The notes under the pieces are model-generated. The model was not told where the DNA came from. It saw nothing but the letters and a program-made list of their open reading frames with translations, and searched no databases. Shown in pieces: positions 5,460-27,483 of a DNA stretch of 33,253 bases. Source of the DNA: an uncultured Actinomycetes bacterium (GTDB lineage Bacteria > Actinomycetota > Coriobacteriia > Coriobacteriales > Atopobiaceae); contig OMTG01000032.1 in assembly GCA_900313905.1 (NCBI GenBank), positions 1-33,253 on the forward strand. Direction: 5' to 3'. Both the position numbers and the translations under genes were made by a program. The number at the start of each line of letters is the position of its first letter. Position 1 is the first letter of the stretch.

Positions 5460-5534
5460 TGGAGCATCGTCCAATGGTTAGGACCCGGGTTTTTGGTGCC
5501 TGTAATGGGGGTTCGAATCCCTCTGCTCCAGCCA
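5460..5534 (+). tRNA. tRNA-Gln (anticodon UUG)
   Basis: A full cloverleaf is visible: acceptor TGGAGCA pairs with TGCTCCA; the D stem is GTCC/GGAC around an AATGGTTA loop; the anticodon stem is CGGGT/GCCTG around the loop TTTTGGT; the T arm is GGGGG-TTCGAAT-CCCTC. The loop places TTG at positions 34-36, which reads glutamine CAA (and CAG by wobble). The discriminator is G and the CCA end is encoded. Confidence 0.96.
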
Positions 5535-18120: not shown

Positions 18121-18188
18121 CGGGGAGAACATCGCTCCATGTGGCACAAGGGAGGAAGCCATATGGAGCAGGAAACATGGGGGCGAAG

Positions 18189-20447
18189 CTAATCGAGATG
18201 CCAGATCTCGTCGTTGTACTGCTTGATGGTGCGGTCTGAGGAGAACTTTCCTGCCATCGCCGTATTGACCAGGGACTTCTTCAGCCAGGAGCTGCGGTCC
18301 TCGTAGTCTACGTACATGCGCTCCTTCACCTGGATGTATTCCTCCAGGTCGAGTAGCGCCATGAACCAATCCTTGTTCGCCATATCGTCGTGGAGACGCT
18401 TCAGGCGCTCCGGGTTCCCTGTTGCCATGAACTTCGGGTTCGTGATGAAGTCGACGAGGAGCTTCGTGCCTGGACGCAGGTACAGGCCATGAGGACGGTA
18501 GGCATTCTCGGCGTAGAGGCGCACGACCTCCTCGGAGGAGGCGCCGAAGGTATAGATGTTCTCAGGGCCAACGAGGTCGGCGATCTCGACGTTCGCGCCG
18601 TCCATCGTGCAGAGGGTCACGGCACCATTGAGCATGAGCTTCATGTTCGACGTGCCCGAAGCCTCCTTGGAGGCAAGGGAGATCTGCTCGGAGATGTCAG
18701 CTGCCGGGATGAGCTTCTCGGCTGCAGTGACGTTGTAGTTCTCGACCATGATGACCTGGAGATACGGCGAGACATCAGGATCTGCTGCGATCCACTGCGA
18801 GAGCGTCAGGATCAGATGGATGATGTCCTGGGCGATCACATAGGCAGGGGCAGCCTTGCCGCCGAAGATCACCGTGATCGGGCGCGCCGGGATATTGCCA
18901 TTCTTGATGTCAAGATACTTCCAGATCAGGTAGAGGGCGAGCATCTGCTGGCGCTTGTACTCGTGGATGCGCTTGATCTGGACATCGACGATCGCGTTGC
19001 GCGGGATATCGATGCCACGGTTCTGCTTGATGAAGGCGCGCATGCTGCGCTTCGCGATCTCCTTCGCATCGCCGATCTTCTCCAGCATCTCCGGATCGTC
19101 CTTGTACTCCATGAGACCGGAGAGGTCGCCCGTCGTATGCCACTCGGTGCCGAGCGTCTCATCGAGGAGGCTCGTGAGCGCCGGGTTGCATCCCATGATC
19201 CAGCGGCGGAACGTGATGCCATTCGTCTTGTTCGAGAACTTTTCGGGGTAGAGCTTGTAGAAGGGCTTGAGCTCGGACTCCTCCAGGATCTTCGTATGGA
19301 GTGCCGCCACGCCGTTGATTGAGAACCCATAGTGGATATCGATATGGGCCATGTGCACGATATCGTTCTGGATGATCGCGACAGCGGGGTCTGCGTCCTT
19401 TTCCTTCTCGGCGTAGTCGAGCTTCTCGATAATATCGGCAATGCGCGGCGAGACGGTGCGCAGGAAGGAGAGCGGCCACTTCTCGAGGGCTTCGGCGAGG
19501 ATCGTATGGTTCGTGTAGGCAACCATCTTGCGGACGATCGAGACTGCCTCATCGAAGTCGATGCCATGCTCGTCGACGAGGAGCCTGATGAGCTCCGGAA
19601 TCACCATGGTCGGATGGGTGTCGTTGATCTGCACGACCGCATACTCGTCGAGGTCGTGGAGGTCGCTCCCCCGCTCCAGCGCCTCTTCGATGATGAGCTG
19701 GGCGGCGTTCGACACCATGAAGTACTCCTGGTAGACACGCAGAATCCTGCCCTGGTCATCGGAGTCGTCCGGATAGAGGAAGAGCGTGAGGTTCTTCTTG
19801 AGGGCCGTCTTGTCGAAGTCGATCGAATCGGCAGACACCAGGCTTTCGTCGACGCTCGTGAGGTCGAAGAGGTGGAGATGGTTCTTCGTCTTCCTCCCGT
19901 AGCCCAGCACGTCGATATCGTAGAGCTTCGAGGTGACCGAGAAGCCGCCGAAGGGCACCGTGTAGGACTTGCCGGTATCGACGAGCCAGCCCTGCTCATG
20001 CAGCCACTCGTCCGGCAGCTCGGTCTGCTGGTTGTCGCGGAACTTCTGGTGGAAGAGGCCGAAATGGTAGTTCAGGCCGACGCCGTCGCCCGGAAGCCCG
20101 AGCGTGGCGATGGAATCGAGGAAGCACGCTGCCAGCCTGCCGAGGCCGCCGTTGCCGAGCGAAGGCTCGACCTCGCACTCCTCGACCTTGTTCAGGTCAT
20201 GGCCAGCATGGTAGAGCTGCTCCTTCACCTCGTTGTAGATGCCGAGGTTGATCAGGTTGTTCGTGAGCAGCTTGCCGATCAGGAACTCGGCAGAGATGTA
20301 ATAGAGGCGGCGCTTGCCCTCGGTATCCGGGAGGCTCTGCGCCTTCTCCCGCACAATCTCCATCAGCATCGTATAGGCATCGGAGTCATCCAAGGCAGCA
20401 AGGGGAAGCCCGTACTTCTCATGGGCACGCTTCTCAAGATCAATCAT
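18189..20447 (-). CDS. glgP: glycogen/starch/alpha-glucan phosphorylase
   Basis: GlgP releases glucose-1-phosphate from glycogen or maltodextrin ends using PLP. The 752-residue length is slightly short of the usual 790-840. Visible blocks are RLYYISAEFLIGK, EPSLGNGGLGRLAACFLDS, QINDTHPTMVIPEL, FSNKTNGITFRRW, QIKRIHEYKRQQM and EASGTSNMKLMLNGA, with the PLP lysine at about residue 603. The ATG at 20447 starts MIDLEKRAHEKYG behind AAGGAG; the open frame upstream runs through palindromic control DNA and is not coding. It is a single gene with its own terminator. No other glg gene is nearby. The upstream region is unusually rich in operator-like sequences. Confidence 0.97.
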   Translation of the reverse strand: MIDLEKRAHEKYGLPLAALDDSDAYTMLMEIVREKAQSLPDTEGKRRLYYISAEFLIGKLLTNNLINLGIYNEVKEQLYHAGHDLNKVEECEVEPSLGNGGLGRLAACFLDSIATLGLPGDGVGLNYHFGLFHQKFRDNQQTELPDEWLHEQGWLVDTGKSYTVPFGGFSVTSKLYDIDVLGYGRKTKNHLHLFDLTSVDESLVSADSIDFDKTALKKNLTLFLYPDDSDDQGRILRVYQEYFMVSNAAQLIIEEALERGSDLHDLDEYAVVQINDTHPTMVIPELIRLLVDEHGIDFDEAVSIVRKMVAYTNHTILAEALEKWPLSFLRTVSPRIADIIEKLDYAEKEKDADPAVAIIQNDIVHMAHIDIHYGFSINGVAALHTKILEESELKPFYKLYPEKFSNKTNGITFRRWIMGCNPALTSLLDETLGTEWHTTGDLSGLMEYKDDPEMLEKIGDAKEIAKRSMRAFIKQNRGIDIPRNAIVDVQIKRIHEYKRQQMLALYLIWKYLDIKNGNIPARPITVIFGGKAAPAYVIAQDIIHLILTLSQWIAADPDVSPYLQVIMVENYNVTAAEKLIPAADISEQISLASKEASGTSNMKLMLNGAVTLCTMDGANVEIADLVGPENIYTFGASSEEVVRLYAENAYRPHGLYLRPGTKLLVDFITNPKFMATGNPERLKRLHDDMANKDWFMALLDLEEYIQVKERMYVDYEDRSSWLKKSLVNTAMAGKFSSDRTIKQYNDEIWHLD

Positions 20448-20470
20448 GCGCGTCTGCTCCTTACATACAA

Positions 20471-20500
20471 GAGGGACCACGGGGCAGGGCCCCATCCCTC
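20471..20500 (-). promoter_or_regulatory. leader hairpin before the glgP ribosome site
   Basis: GAGGGA (20471-20476)/TCCCTC (20495-20500) encloses GGGGC/GCCCC (20481-20485/20489-20493) with an AGG loop. In the mRNA it ends about 8 nt upstream of the AAGGAG ribosome site, so it could affect translation initiation. Confidence 0.45.
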
Positions 20501-20565
20501 TTCCGGACATTCGGAATTGGTGGAACAGCGAACTGGGAACCTCTCCCTGAGGATTGGTGGTATCC

Positions 20566-20585
20566 GGCTGGAAACGTTTCCAGCC
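20566..20585. promoter_or_regulatory. LacI/GalR-type operator upstream of glgP
   Basis: GGCTGGAAACGTTTCCAGCC is a perfect 20-bp palindrome with the AAACGTTT core and central CG typical of LacI-family operators, including MalR and cre-like sites. It sits 119 bp upstream of glgP, likely just after the promoter. A carbohydrate-responsive LacI-family repressor encoded elsewhere is the expected partner. Confidence 0.7.
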
Positions 20586-20637
20586 CGCTCTTGAGTTGAG
20601 TACACAATACACCACCCCGACCAGTCTGTCTTCGAGA

Positions 20638-20742
20638 AACTCGACATTTCCGAAAAATATTTACACCCTGTCGCGTTGAACTCGACACCCCCTTAATACC
20701 TGTCGAGTTCGCTGAAAATCGCGAGGTCAGGAACTCGACAGG
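20638..20742. promoter_or_regulatory. cluster of TGTCGAGTT/AACTCGACA sites upstream of glgP
   Basis: AACTCGACA occurs at 20638-20646. A 19-bp near-palindrome with one mismatch lies at 20669-20687. TGTCGAGTT lies at 20701-20709 and AACTCGACA at 20732-20740. The last two extend to 12-bp inverted repeats (20699-20710 and 20731-20742). The sequence matches the perfect palindrome upstream of glmU at 15341-15363. Confidence 0.7.
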
Positions 20743-20806
20743 TGACAATCAGGCGCAGATAGGCCCTTTTGGACCACCTGGGTGTGGAACCGCTTGCACA
20801 TTCATT

Positions 20807-21904
20807 GGCGAATCCACACTCCGAGTGCAACAGGATATTACGAGGTAGCCGCCCAGGCACGACCTATGATGATGCTTGCGGAGACATGCATCATTGGAGG
20901 CACCATGGACGGCTACAGCCATCCTGGCATCGCGGAGCGCGAGGACATCATGGTCCGCTGGAAGGGCCATGAGGGGGTCAGCCAGATAGCGAGGGAGCTC
21001 CACAGGGACAAGCCGGCCATATCCCGCGAGATCGGGCGGAACGGCTGGCAAGGCCCTGCAGGACGCCGCTACCGCGCGCCTGCGGCACAGAGGAAGGCGG
21101 ACAGGAGGAGGCTGCGCTGCAGGCGCCCCAGGCTCATGGACGAACCCGAGAGGCGCTCGCTGGTCGTGAGGCTCATGCGGGACGGGCACTGGTCCCCGGA
21201 GGAGATATCGGGCCGCATCTCGGAGGGGCGGCCCGGCCTCGCCGTGAGCGATTCCGCCATCTGCCGTGCCGTGGAGCCGGGATCCCCAGGCTGCGGGCCT
21301 CCGGGGCACAGGAAGGCCGCAAGGCTGCTCAGGCACCATGGAAAGCGCAGGCACAGGAAGGGAGGCCAGGAGCGCAGGGGCAAGGTGCGCATAACCCATG
21401 ACATCTCCGAGAGTCCGGAAGAGGCATCGTCCAGGAGCCGGACAGGCGACTGGGAAGGCGATACGGTCGCTGGCAGGCAGGGCGGTGCATGCCTTGTCAC
21501 CCAGGTCGACAGGATGAGCGGATACCTTATCGGCGGCAAGGCCGCCAGGAAGGCCCATGCCGAGGCCAGCGAGGCCACGGAGAGGGCGCCGGGGGAGAGG
21601 CCGTCCATACCGTCACTCCCGGCAGGGGCAAGGAGCTCTCGGATGCAGAGGGCCTCCAAGAGGCGCTGGGTGCGCCGGCCTGCTTCTGCCATCCCCACCA
21701 TCCATGGGAGCGGGCACCAACGAGAACACCAATAGCCTTCTCAGGGACTGGTTCCCGAAGGGCGAGAGCCTCGACGATGTCAGCGACAGCGAGGTGCAGG
21801 AGGCATGCGATTCACTCAACCGGAGACCACGCAAGCGTCTCAAGTGGAAGTGCCCCTGGGAGGTCTACCACTGCCAGTCGTTGCACTTGCTCTGAGGATT
21901 CGCC
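20807..21904 (+). mobile_element. IS30-family insertion sequence, decayed
   Basis: The ends are imperfect inverted repeats. The left end starts GGCGAATCC at 20807 and continues to AGTGCAAC; the right end, read inward from 21904, starts GGCGAATCC and also reaches AGTGCAAC at the same spacing. The element is 1098 bp, normal for IS30. Flanking TT on both sides (20805-20806 and 21905-21906) would fit a 2-bp target duplication. It encodes one transposase, now broken. It lies between glgP and the choloylglycine hydrolase gene. Confidence 0.85.
20905..21895 (+). pseudogene. IS30-family transposase, frameshifted
   Basis: The coding sequence starts MDGYSHPGIAERED behind GGAGG. It has the N-terminal helix-turn-helix (GVSQIARELHRDKPAISREI) and the first catalytic region GDWEGDTVAG. 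It changes frame near 21600, before HTVTPGRGKEL, and again near 21710, between HHPWER and GTNENTNSLL. In the second frame the expected catalytic Asp of TPDRG is Gly (codon at 21621-21623). The end NRRPRKRLKWKCPWEVY is the typical IS30 C-terminus. Two frameshifts plus a lost DDE residue mean it is inactive. Confidence 0.88.
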
Positions 21905-21953
21905 TTCAAAATTTCTGCTATCCGTTGCTCTGTGCGGGTATGAATGCAGCAGA

Positions 21954-21972
21954 GGAGCCAGGATGTGGCTCC
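21954..21972 (+). promoter_or_regulatory. leader hairpin before the choloylglycine hydrolase gene
   Basis: GGAGCCA (21954-21960) pairs with TGGCTCC (21966-21972). It ends 10 bp before the GGGAGG ribosome site. No good promoter is visible in the 92 bp between the IS end and the gene. Confidence 0.4.
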
Positions 21973-21996
21973 CTGTCATGCTGGGAGGTACTGTCT

Positions 21997-22953
21997 ATGT
22001 GCACTGCCATCCGTTTCAGTGACGACGCGGGCAATCTCTACTTTGCCCGCAACCTCGATTGGAGCTGTGGCTACGGCGAGCGCGTCGTGGTCGCCCCTGC
22101 GGGATACACGCCACAATCCGCCTTCGGCGCCACGCCGACCCTTCCCCATCCTGTCATCGGCATGGGCATTGTCGAGAAGAATACGCCGCTCTACTTCGAC
22201 TGCGCGAACACCGAGGGGCTTGCCTGCGCAGGGCTGAACTTCCCAGGCTATGCCCAGTACGAGAAGGAAGCTATCCCGGGCAAGACCAATGTCGCCTCCT
22301 GGGAGCTCCCGCTCTGGGTCGTCGCGAACTTCACGACGGTCGATGAAGCGAAAGCAGCCCTGAAGGACGTCGCTGTCGTCGACAAGCCGATCGTGGACAA
22401 GTATCCGACGTCGCTGCTCCACTGGATCATAGGCGACGGGACGCGGAGCATCGTCGTCGAGTACACCGCGGATGGCATGCATGTCTTCGAGGACGACGTG
22501 GACGTGCTCGCGAACCAGCCTGGTTTCGGCTGGCACGCGGAGAACCTCAGGAACTATCTCAATGCCACAAGCGAGGTACCTTCGACCCAGACCTGGGACA
22601 AGGCCGAGCTCACCCCGTACGGCTCTGGCGGCGGCATGAGGGGCATCCCGGGCGACTACTACTCCCCCTCGCGCTTCGTGCGCATCGCCTACCTCAATGC
22701 GAACTACCCGGTCCAGACGACCGAGGAGGCCAACGTCTCCCGCATGTTCCATGAGCTGGGAGGCGTCGCGATGATCGACGGCGCGGCACGGATGACGAAC
22801 GGAGAGTTCGAGAAGACCATCTACACCGGTGGCTACTCGCAGCGCACCCACACCTACTACTACAGCACCTACGACGATCCTGCAATCAAGGCCGTCTCGG
22901 CAGACGAGGAGCTTGCCGCCCATTCGGGCACAGAGCTCATCGAGGTCGCATAG
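21997..22953 (+). CDS. bsh: choloylglycine hydrolase family protein (bile salt hydrolase-like)
   Basis: The 318-residue protein is an Ntn-hydrolase of the conjugated bile acid hydrolase/penicillin V acylase family. After removal of Met1, Cys2 becomes the N-terminal nucleophile. The other active-site residues are present: R18 and D21 in FARNLDW, N81 in GLNFPGYA, N173 in LANQPGFGWH and R226 in SPSRFVR. The length is exactly family-typical. GLNFPGYAQY fits bile salt hydrolases, which release glycine or taurine from bile salts in the gut, but penicillin V or acyl-homoserine lactone amidase activity cannot be excluded. No signal peptide is present, so it is cytoplasmic. ATG 21997 follows GGGAGG (21983-21988). 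The IS30 remnant ends 92 bp upstream. Confidence 0.93.
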   Translation: MCTAIRFSDDAGNLYFARNLDWSCGYGERVVVAPAGYTPQSAFGATPTLPHPVIGMGIVEKNTPLYFDCANTEGLACAGLNFPGYAQYEKEAIPGKTNVASWELPLWVVANFTTVDEAKAALKDVAVVDKPIVDKYPTSLLHWIIGDGTRSIVVEYTADGMHVFEDDVDVLANQPGFGWHAENLRNYLNATSEVPSTQTWDKAELTPYGSGGGMRGIPGDYYSPSRFVRIAYLNANYPVQTTEEANVSRMFHELGGVAMIDGAARMTNGEFEKTIYTGGYSQRTHTYYYSTYDDPAIKAVSADEELAAHSGTELIEVA

Positions 22954-25306: not shown

Positions 25307-25609
25307 GGATTCCTCCCAATGAACGGAGTTCGGCAGATCGCTGAAGAGCCCAGTTCCCTAATGGCGTCCTGCGCTCTTGTCCTGCACTTCCATGCTGCCC
25401 CCTTCAGGACGGGCGTGCTCTTTTCAGATGCTTCAATAGCTTATCATCTCTCATACTCCGGGCAAGGATGGACATGCTTTGCAGCCGCCATGCATAAGCA
25501 CCCATCCAGTGGCCTGCCCGCTTTTGCCTCTCCCGTCCGCTGTGCCCGGCATTCTGGCATTCTCCCTGGTCCTGCCGCTGTCACCTGCCCAGAGGAGCCC
25601 CGCCTTCCA

Positions 25610-25708
25610 CATTATTCGCAATATAGAATCGCCGATTTGCCGCATTATTCGGCTTCTGGATTGGCCATTTTCCCGCATTATCCGCAATCTGACATCATGT
25701 CATCTTTG
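25610..25708. repeat. three imperfect 33-bp tandem repeats
   Basis: Units start at 25610, 25643 and 25676, each beginning CATTATTCG or CATTATCCG and carrying an AT-rich middle and a CCG end. The period is a multiple of three: the plus strand reads repeated R-I-I-R segments and the minus strand repeated R-I-M-R segments, 11 residues apart. The third unit decays after about 20 bp. Confidence 0.65.
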
Positions 25709-25911
25709 TCCCATCTTCAATGGAATGTATATTCCGAGCCATGGATAACAGCTTCGTGCATACTCTACAACACAGAAGCCGGTCTCTAGGGTGGGGTTCC
25801 CGGATAACGTCCTCCGACAGATTGCGGTCTTGCCCGTCTGTAAAAGGCTGTCCAGCCGCAGAAAGCACCGATGTCATCCACCGACACCGCTCCATCAAAC
25901 AAGCCCATCTG

Positions 25912-25940
25912 TTAACTGCATGGCAAAGGGGCAGTACTAT
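25912..25940 (+). promoter_or_regulatory. promoter of the TIR-methyltransferase gene
   Basis: TTAACT (25912-25917) and TACTAT (25935-25940) are separated by 17 bp. Transcription would begin near 25947, with a leader of about 89 nt. Confidence 0.55.
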
Positions 25941-26035
25941 CGTTATCAGCATCGAGGCGCTATCAGGAATGGGCTAAGGCCTCATTCCAGACAGGGCTCT
26001 GCGAATTCTTTCCGACAACGATAGGAGCATCTGCA

Positions 26036-27421
26036 ATGAATGTCGATAACGATATCTTCATCAGCTATCGCAGATCGGATGCAGAGGACTTTTCTGCCAA
26101 CCTGGCCGATCGCCTCCGCTGGAGCGGCTATTCAGTCTTCTTCGACCACGATAATCTGAAGGGCGGGAATTTCAGGCACAACATCGAGGCAGCAATCGAT
26201 GCCTGCACCGATTTCATTGTCGTCCTGTCCAAAGACACGTTCTCGGATCGGATCCAGAACGAGGACGATCCCATGAGGATGGAAATCGCCCGGGCCCTCA
26301 GAATGAAGAAGAACATCGTATGCGTGGCAATGCGAAGCTGGCCGGATGCATTTCCCGACAAGCTTCCTCCAGAGTTGGACCAGATCCGCTGGATGAATTA
26401 CCTGCCCTGCGAAAATACCGCAGCACGGGAACAGAACTTCAAGAAGCTGACGCATTCCCATGATTATCTGAAGTCGAATCCCCATGCCGACAGCCACGCT
26501 GCCAAGGATGCAAAGCCATCCCGCCATTCGAGCGCGTACTGGAAGAAGAATTCTGACAGGCTTTTCGAAGAGGACCTGCTCGGCGAGCAGGAGGCTGTGC
26601 TCCGGAAATTCGATAACGATGTATATGATGACCTGCTCGCAGGCGCATCGGACCTTGCCGTGCTTGATATCGGCTGCGGCAACGGTCTCACGTTGATGAA
26701 GCGGCTTGGAAACCGGCCGGAGGTCACCCACATCCTGGGCGTGGACTCCGACCCAGATTCAATACGAGCTGCACGCGAGCAGTATCCAAGCACGGCGGAA
26801 TGCCAGGTCGACTTCGAGGTGATGGACTGCGAGGCTGACGATTTTATCCCTCGCCTCAAGGACTACTTGCGCAGGAACAATCTGAGCGGCTTCGATTTCG
26901 TCAATATCAGCATGACGCTGCTGTTCCTGCGCGATCCCCGCAAGATGCTTGATGGCATCAGAAGCGCCCTCTCTGATGGCGCACAGTTCTTCGTGAGGGA
27001 TATAGACGATGGACTGGACATCGCCTATCCCGATGAGAAAGGCGACTTCGCCCATCTGAACCAGCTGGTTGGCCGCATCCTGGCCACCGGCTTTAGGACA
27101 AGCGGCAGGCAGCTGTTCTCCGTCTTCTACCGTGCAGGCTACAGCAACATCCGTCTCAGGAAAGCCGGGCTCTCTACCGTCGGCATGGGCTATGCCGACA
27201 AGCATCGCCTTTTCAAGTCGAGCTTCGGCTGGGCACGAGAAGAGCTGGAGGCTGCCCAGAAATCCGACAGATCCAAAGAGGATCTCGACCAGGACCTGAT
27301 CTGGTACGACGACAATATCGATAGGCTGCAGATGGAGTTCCAAGGCCCAGACTTCTTCTACCAGGAGGGCCATGTCATCTACACCGCCCGCTATGTCAGC
27401 GATCCATCTGACGACTATTAA
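26036..27421 (+). CDS. TIR domain-SAM methyltransferase fusion protein
   Basis: The 461-residue protein joins two domains. Residues 1-140 are a TIR domain: DIFISYRRSDAEDFSANLADRLRWSGY, a BB-loop-like FDHDNLKGGNF (36-46), FIVVLSKDTF, and E83 in DPMRMEIARAL at the place of the NADase glutamate. A polar linker (about 146-168) leads to a class I methyltransferase (170-455) with motif I VLDIGCGNG (209-217), acidic motif II GVDSDPDS and the FDFVNISMTLLFLRDPRKML region. Bacterial TIR domains cleave NAD or make cyclic ADP-ribose signals, mostly in phage defence; the methyltransferase could sense or modify a target (inference). The gene stands alone with its own promoter and lower GC (27/60 at 26041-26100 against 37/60 at 28801-28860), which suggests transfer. 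Confidence 0.88.
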   Translation: MNVDNDIFISYRRSDAEDFSANLADRLRWSGYSVFFDHDNLKGGNFRHNIEAAIDACTDFIVVLSKDTFSDRIQNEDDPMRMEIARALRMKKNIVCVAMRSWPDAFPDKLPPELDQIRWMNYLPCENTAAREQNFKKLTHSHDYLKSNPHADSHAAKDAKPSRHSSAYWKKNSDRLFEEDLLGEQEAVLRKFDNDVYDDLLAGASDLAVLDIGCGNGLTLMKRLGNRPEVTHILGVDSDPDSIRAAREQYPSTAECQVDFEVMDCEADDFIPRLKDYLRRNNLSGFDFVNISMTLLFLRDPRKMLDGIRSALSDGAQFFVRDIDDGLDIAYPDEKGDFAHLNQLVGRILATGFRTSGRQLFSVFYRAGYSNIRLRKAGLSTVGMGYADKHRLFKSSFGWAREELEAAQKSDRSKEDLDQDLIWYDDNIDRLQMEFQGPDFFYQEGHVIYTARYVSDPSDDY

Positions 27422-27446: not shown

Positions 27447-27483
27447 AGGAGGGCCAGGGAGCACGCAGCTCCCTGGCCCTCCT
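27447..27483. terminator. bidirectional hairpin between the converging TIR-methyltransferase and ABC genes
   Basis: A perfect 16-bp stem (27447-27462 with 27468-27483) encloses ACGCA. It lies 25 bp after the plus-strand stop and 19 bp after the minus-strand stop. Neither side has a T-tract, so it is a U-poor terminator. Confidence 0.75.

Follow-up and report, generated by a model that had tools for sequence, protein, structure and literature searches.

A TIR–methyltransferase fusion family of gut bacteria and a candidate sensing role for its methyltransferase half

A gene from an uncultured gut Actinomycetes bacterium of the family Atopobiaceae encodes a TIR domain and a methyltransferase (MTase) in one polypeptide, and it raises the question of what an MTase does as the partner of a TIR domain. 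The cues to which TIR sensors are known to respond are cyclic nucleotides, guide nucleic acids, phage proteins and NLR ligands, and the original prediction for this locus held that no characterized system is known with an MTase as the partner. In support of that view, no TIR–MTase system was described in the openly licensed literature searched, and no model of PADLOC, NCBIfam or Pfam spans the whole fusion.

Architecture of the gene and its product

In the window, which is the whole stretch of 33,253 nucleotides that was analysed, the fusion gene is flanked by an MFS gene on one side and an ABC-transporter pair on the other, all of which are encoded on the other strand, and it has no companion gene. 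The open reading frame starts with ATG, is preceded by AGGAG and encodes 461 amino acids plus the stop. Because both flanking genes are read on the opposite strand, the fusion gene is monocistronic, and an inverted repeat between it and the convergent ABC-transporter genes is a probable terminator, in line with the single transcription unit proposed earlier. The low GC content also noted at the outset was borne out, at 55.4% for the gene against 61.4% for the window and 63% in both neighbours, as was the 729-bp gap upstream, with 54.0% GC. A riboswitch or other structured RNA in this gap was not supported by an Rfam scan of the window, in which no family explained the gap and the sole match was a tRNA at 5460, while a promoter scan of the gap stayed at about chance level and repeat and terminator scans were uninformative. 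The features of the locus are as follows.

26036..27421, + strand: TIR–MTase fusion gene (open reading frame, translation, Pfam, AF2, 50-member alignment)
25307..26035, no strand: low-GC intergenic region upstream of the fusion gene (729 bp, 54.0% GC)
26054..26404, + strand: TIR domain, SARM1-like type, residues 7–123 (TIR_2, SARM1 TIR structures)
26282..26284, + strand: E83, candidate NADase catalytic glutamate, in MRMEIARAL (SARM1 alignment, family conservation)
26477..26560, + strand: linker, residues about 148–175, predicted to be disordered (AF2)
26561..27391, + strand: class I SAM methyltransferase and its conserved C-terminal part, residues about 176–452 (Pfam, AF2, Foldseek)
26660..26686, + strand: SAM motif VLDIGCGNG, residues 209–217 (conservation in 50 members)
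27005..27109, + strand: family signature DDG-x5-P (324–332) and R-xx-GR (354–358) (conservation in 50 members)
about 27447–27483, no strand: inverted repeat between the convergent TIR–MTase and ABC-transporter genes (opposite-strand self-match, sequence)

The N-terminal domain was matched by TIR_2 of Pfam over residues 7–123 (1.1e-15) and by SARM1 TIR structures at the sequence level (2.5e-11), and the AF2 confidence blocks over it lie mostly between 75 and 95. When the query is aligned with the solved SARM1 TIR, E83 falls on chain residue 86, counted as E642, the catalytic glutamate of SARM1. E83 is identical in all 50 full-length family members, at 18–34% identity to the query. The TIR fold and the glutamate characteristic of TIR NADases are thus both found, which upholds the earlier proposal of a TIR domain with E83 as its candidate NADase residue. 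As judged from these alignments, the invariance of E83 indicates catalysis, and the query TIR is a probable NAD-destroying domain. It resembles SARM1 and bacterial TIR NADases (PDB 10ra, 6o0q and others) in its TIR fold and in the alignment of E83 with E642, but the ARM/SAM-domain architecture of SARM1 is missing from the query, in which the presumed regulator is the MTase domain.

The MTase half follows a linker with AF2 block means of 44–66, in which residues 148–159 fall below pLDDT 50. The AF2 model of the query, calculated with 50 family members as input, has a mean pLDDT of 88.8, and the MTase region, with its C-terminal helix/strand part, is predicted very confidently (block means mostly >90). 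Five Methyltransf families matched residues about 203–331 above the Pfam curated cut-offs (best, 2e-10), and the Rossmann fold, the GxG of motif I and the acidic residue after strand 2, which together define class I MTases, are all found. VLDIGCGNG at residues 209–217, from which a class I SAM MTase had originally been read, is therefore in place in a domain on which Pfam and AF2 agree, and the original concern that structure prediction might show no TIR fold or no SAM pocket did not materialize, as both halves fold confidently. The nearest solved fold in Foldseek is 3mgg, a methyltransferase of M. mazei (E 6.6e-14, TM (target) 0.75), and the next matches are small-molecule MTases. Together with 3mgg, enzymes such as JHAMT, RebM and TleD share the class I fold with the query at 14–18% identity over the MTase part, but these known MTases have no N-terminal effector, and DDG-x5-P/R-xx-GR is common to the query's own family; from its conservation, this signature is presumed to be the substrate site. 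A function in DNA restriction-modification, or as a DNA amino-MTase, was excluded on motif, because residues 286–298 (FDFVNISMTLLFL) lack [DNS]PP[YFW] after strand 4, where the family reads [NF]xSxxLxHL.

Membership in Thoeris, CBASS, TIR-pAgo, CARF-TIR or NLR systems was rejected because their defining partner domains are absent. The PADLOC models PDLC02012, PDLC02421 and PDLC02403, which represent TIR-SAVED CBASS and TIR-pAgo proteins, match the TIR segment of the query at 4e-10 to 1e-12, but SAVED, CD-NTase and pAgo are lacking from the query, the CBASS models cover the TIR only, and the MTase region is unmatched. Thoeris ThsB likewise matches the TIR segment weakly, but ThsB has no MTase and no ThsA-type partner lies beside the query gene, whose neighbours in the window encode MFS and ABC transporters. 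Neither a NACHT or NB-ARC ATPase nor a CARF domain was matched in the query protein. Among the closest known systems is Cat1, a type III CRISPR effector in which a CARF sensor is fused to a TIR in one chain (PMC12162218). Both proteins are single polypeptides that combine a sensing domain with an NAD+-cleaving TIR (cleavage by the query being predicted), but the CARF domain of Cat1 reads cyclic oligoadenylate, while the query has an MTase fold and no adjoining CRISPR gene. By this analogy, the fusion may work like a sensor–TIR fusion such as Cat1 while belonging to no named system.

A family with an exchangeable N-terminal module

Across 84,980 species genomes, 59 loci were detected, and reading of their ORFs showed that at least 54 encode an N-terminal TIR followed by the MTase, the others being L062, L063 and L077, with a HEPN-like domain, L070, with an MTase ORF without a TIR domain, and L067, which is truncated. 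A chance fusion or an assembly error is ruled out by the 49 full-length relatives from other assemblies. The hosts are mostly gut Clostridia and Coriobacteriia and include Christensenellaceae, Lachnospiraceae, Oscillospiraceae, Erysipelotrichaceae, Acholeplasma, Evansella, Collinsella, Olsenella and other Atopobiaceae, with relatives also in a Micrococcales member. Since most carriers are, by record title, gut bacteria, the protein might be imagined as a TIR effector that a commensal aims at its animal host, a role put forward for TIR proteins of the TcpB type. That idea seems very improbable to us, because no signal peptide is evident (the TIR starts at residue 6–7), no secretion genes adjoin, Acholeplasma, Evansella and the Micrococcales member carry relatives, and the MTase would be left unexplained.

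Of all alignment columns, only F8, E83, D211, D324, D325, G326, P332 and R354 (eight in total) show no variation across the 50 full-length members. Near-invariant positions are G213 (49/50), G217 (47/50), the acidic residue at 237 (49/50), G357 (49/50) and R358 (49/50), and at two others the query itself deviates, with F297 for H and L181 for R. Because such residues occur in both halves, both catalytic centers are under strong selection. This conservation bears on an alternative in which an active MTase would methylate a cellular target or metabolite and the TIR would fire when methylation fails, through SAM depletion or a phage-altered target. Such a self-contained modification/toxin unit would be analogous to restriction-modification without acting on DNA. 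That D211, G213, G217 and the acidic residue at 237 are kept in 47–50 of the 50 members, and that the fold is most like those of small-molecule and peptide MTases, agrees with it, and it is the strongest rival to the sensing role discussed below because most members keep the SAM site. We nevertheless think it rather unlikely, given that one clade lacking the SAM motif retains the TIR and the substrate signature and that no partner gene is constant.

The two halves of the query have different nearest relatives. Its TIR is closest to those of L073, L082 and L089 (40–42%), the MTases of which are only 28–31% identical to that of the query, while its MTase is closest to that of L038 (44%), whose TIR is about 20% identical; the query and L038 stand together on a starred branch of the 60-row MTase tree. 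The N-terminal module is therefore exchangeable. When TIR types, assigned by hand from sequence clusters, were placed on this tree, they required eight changes, and the SARM1-like label required at least three on starred branches. In the clade with FKN-type TIRs, Collinsella members are interspersed with Lachnospiraceae and Ruminococcus, a pattern that suggests transfer from one phylum to another.

Exchange also extends beyond TIR domains. In L062, L063 and L077, the same MTase follows an all-helical domain, as modelled by AF2, with an invariant R99-N100-x3-H104 at the end of helix 93–104. HEPN RNases are helical bundles with Rx4-6H near the end of helix 3 (PMC3710099), and these features were found in all three sequences, in a model from three sequences of moderate confidence (mean pLDDT 67, with the N-terminal part mostly at 66–90). 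The domain thus fits a HEPN-like assignment at the level of this model, and Pfam gave a match of just 0.08. Conflict systems typically show such swapping between TIR and HEPN-like domains. A second family of the same order has the MTase fused to a RimI-type GNAT without a TIR (L013–L017, L020–L023 and L030), and the MTase–RimI fusion of L002 exceeds the NCBIfam rimI cut-off; neither tsaB nor tsaD was found beside the RimI fusions in the loci read. An idea that the RimI fusion and a RimK-like neighbour described below reflect guarding of the ribosome is a lead only.

These relatives bear on the proposal that an NAD derivative produced by the TIR (ADPR, cyclic ADPR or nicotinamide) is methylated by the MTase in the same chain, either to yield a dedicated messenger or to be inactivated. 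Methylation of the TIR product, one of the roles first suggested for the query, is weakened by the relatives in which a HEPN-like domain replaces the TIR, and an MTase that merely methylates such a product becomes less likely because HEPN-like and RimI-fused relatives exist. The joint conservation of both active sites in 50 members speaks for signal synthesis, as does a potential receptor, a large membrane protein encoded in a tight operon with the fusion in L050, L054 and L088. However, the same MTase also occurs with a HEPN-like domain, fused to RimI without a TIR, or alone (L070), and no receptor gene lies beside the query, so that we rate this proposal as improbable.

The family further contains a branch without the SAM motif, represented by L018/L091 and by a second TIR–MTase in the query's own genome.

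L008:1495-3126 (contig C157) and L032:3-1481, - strand: second TIR–MTase of the own genome, SAM motif lost (ORF reading)

In these proteins, LDLDCRG or VDLDCRG replaces LDxGCxxG and the acidic SAM residue is also gone, so the GxG and acidic residue of class I MTases are both missing; for the C157 protein, Pfam recognizes a TIR without any methyltransferase. The substrate-site signature is retained, as FDDGTK-x-C-[YF]P and DRFNGRK. We view the MTase half as a recognition module mainly because the substrate signature outlasts the SAM motif, and this clade comprises two lineages only. A precedent for a catalytically dead MTase fold in a counter-invader protein is DndH, which contains an inactive DNA-adenine-methyltransferase module (PMC10853773), but the module of DndH has a DNA MTase fold and belongs to a large protein of many domains, while the query family has a small-molecule-type fold fused to a TIR. 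The gene after the C157 TIR–MTase encodes a GNAT fused to an APH-like kinase, and a GNAT-type gene directly follows the TIR–MTase of L018, in another genome of the family. Far from being a singleton, TIR–MTase thus forms a family in which the N-terminal module can be exchanged and one branch has lost the SAM motif.

Distribution, neighbours and the question of defence

The fusion occurs in 4 of 140 genomes of the bacterial family but in neither congener, in the query genome only among a 396-genome phylum sample, and in five of nine genomes of a second genus. When 398 genomes of the class were searched with a profile, 20 had the MTase, and TIR fusions stood at ten loci, two of them in the query's own genome. 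In the congener G001, the ABC pair and the genes of window positions 18134–22943 share one contig, and the intervening 12.4 kb differs and contains no TIR–MTase; the other congener (G002) is also without a copy. An insertion-sequence-like transposase gene lies at 20807–21904 of the window, between phosphorylase-like and choloylglycine-hydrolase-like genes, and many copies of it, 73–96% identical, occur in both congeners. With its patchy occurrence at a variable locus, absence from both congeners and low GC content, the fusion gene looks acquired, and in some genera its chromosomal position is constant, with ordinary genes around it. Carriage by phages or prophages as the means of spread is not supported, as two scans of IMG/VR and one search of INPHARED gave no copy; PLSDB plasmids gave one match, to a TIR-only protein at 31%, and no full match.

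Among the 76 nearest neighbours scanned, clear defence genes are few and most genes are ordinary or housekeeping ones, by an uncontrolled raw count. The defence neighbours are Cas9 beside L039, a RyR-domain gene beside L090, and matches to AbiL/AriA-like proteins, HerA and dGTPase. The original description of a typical acquired defence gene thus holds for acquisition, which the patchy occurrence and low GC content support, but not for the defence-typical setting, with few defence neighbours and no copies in IMG/VR or INPHARED. The search for homologues with the same fusion that was first proposed gave at least 54 loci, and clear defence genes adjoin only a few of the family's loci. The fusion gene is a plausible candidate for a defence gene.

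Several partner genes recur in a clade-specific manner. A GNAT gene directly follows L034, L035, L037, L043 and L067 and precedes L048, and a RimK-like ATP-grasp ligase, a possible clue to the substrate of the MTase, is encoded directly downstream of L065, L070 (the MTase alone), L072, L086 and L090. In L050:6739-8778, L054:1253-3454 and L088:1855-3861, from Acholeplasma, Clostridia and Erysipelotrichaceae, the gene for the large membrane protein, which has no informative Pfam match, lies upstream and overlaps the TIR–MTase start by a few bases; this arrangement is a two-gene form of the TIR–MTase system. Such neighbours, which include GNAT, RimK-like ATP-grasp, SGNH-like, GGCT-like and APH proteins in mostly housekeeping surroundings, together with the MTase–RimI fusions described above, would suit a tailoring enzyme of a small-molecule, peptide or protein-modification pathway, in which the TIR would have no part in immunity and would serve for regulation or nucleotide binding. 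Against this stand the clade specificity of the partner genes, the invariant E83, which indicates catalysis, and the TIR/HEPN-like swapping, and we consider it unlikely.

Other arrangements were observed around the family and in the query's genome. Two different TIR–MTase genes lie about 2 kb apart on opposite strands of the same locus in L056 and L061. In the related Clostridia loci L078, L079 and L080, the TIR–MTase and a LuxS-like gene are separated by a few hundred bases at most, and the proximity of LuxS, a part of SAM recycling, is possibly a coincidence among relatives. The own genome (G000, 2.8 Mb) has seven TIR-domain matches with varied partners, six of them over the Pfam cut-off, including L125, with a repeat-rich helical C-terminus, and L126, with a TIR-transmembrane-propeller-like architecture. 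On its contig C121, a 516-amino acid fusion of TIR, BspA-type leucine-rich repeat and CutA1 (L007:1483-3033, + strand) is encoded directly downstream of tsaD, and CutA1 is unusual as a TIR partner. L119 and L120, from the window's family, combine an N-terminal macro-domain-like region with a C-terminal TIR.

Possible mode of action and its meaning

The reading that we favor is a one-gene sensor–effector, an NADase TIR gated by an MTase-fold sensor, to which we would give nearly an even chance. The N-terminal TIR would be an NAD+-consuming effector that is held off at rest, and the C-terminal MTase-fold module would be the sensing half, which would bind a specific small ligand or a modifiable target, and SAM in most members. 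A change of occupancy, because a ligand appears or because SAM or the target is altered in infection or stress, would let the TIRs assemble, and the assembled TIRs would deplete NAD+, so that the cell stops growing or dies; among candidate triggers is phage. The same module may gate other effectors in the relatives, namely several TIR subtypes and the HEPN-like domain, and the recurrence of the fusion with its toxic half swapped suggests that the MTase half decides when the toxin fires. Since one clade lacks the SAM motif, recognition rather than methyl transfer would be the conserved role. More tentatively, gut bacteria would have turned the SAM-MTase fold into a novel type of sensor for immunity or stress, in which one conserved module gates interchangeable toxins (several TIR NADase subtypes and a HEPN-like RNase) and has become a pure ligand receptor in the SAM-motif-less branch. 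Against the sensor–effector reading, most members keep an intact SAM motif, so that real methylation may matter, and the mostly ordinary neighbours, the moderate HEPN-like model, the two-lineage extent of the SAM-less clade, and F297 and L181 of the query also count.

If the sensor–effector reading is true, the family would represent a new way of sensing, in which an MTase fold takes the place of the sensor, the toxic partners can be exchanged and one branch does without the SAM motif. NAD+ depletion would thereby be coupled to methyl metabolism or to a modifiable target. The conserved residues E83, D211, D324–D325, R354 and R358, all invariant except R358, make up a small set of mutants with which the sensor idea can be tested directly. 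The work also adds a family to those of gut Clostridia and Coriobacteriia, in which defence repertoires are less well described.
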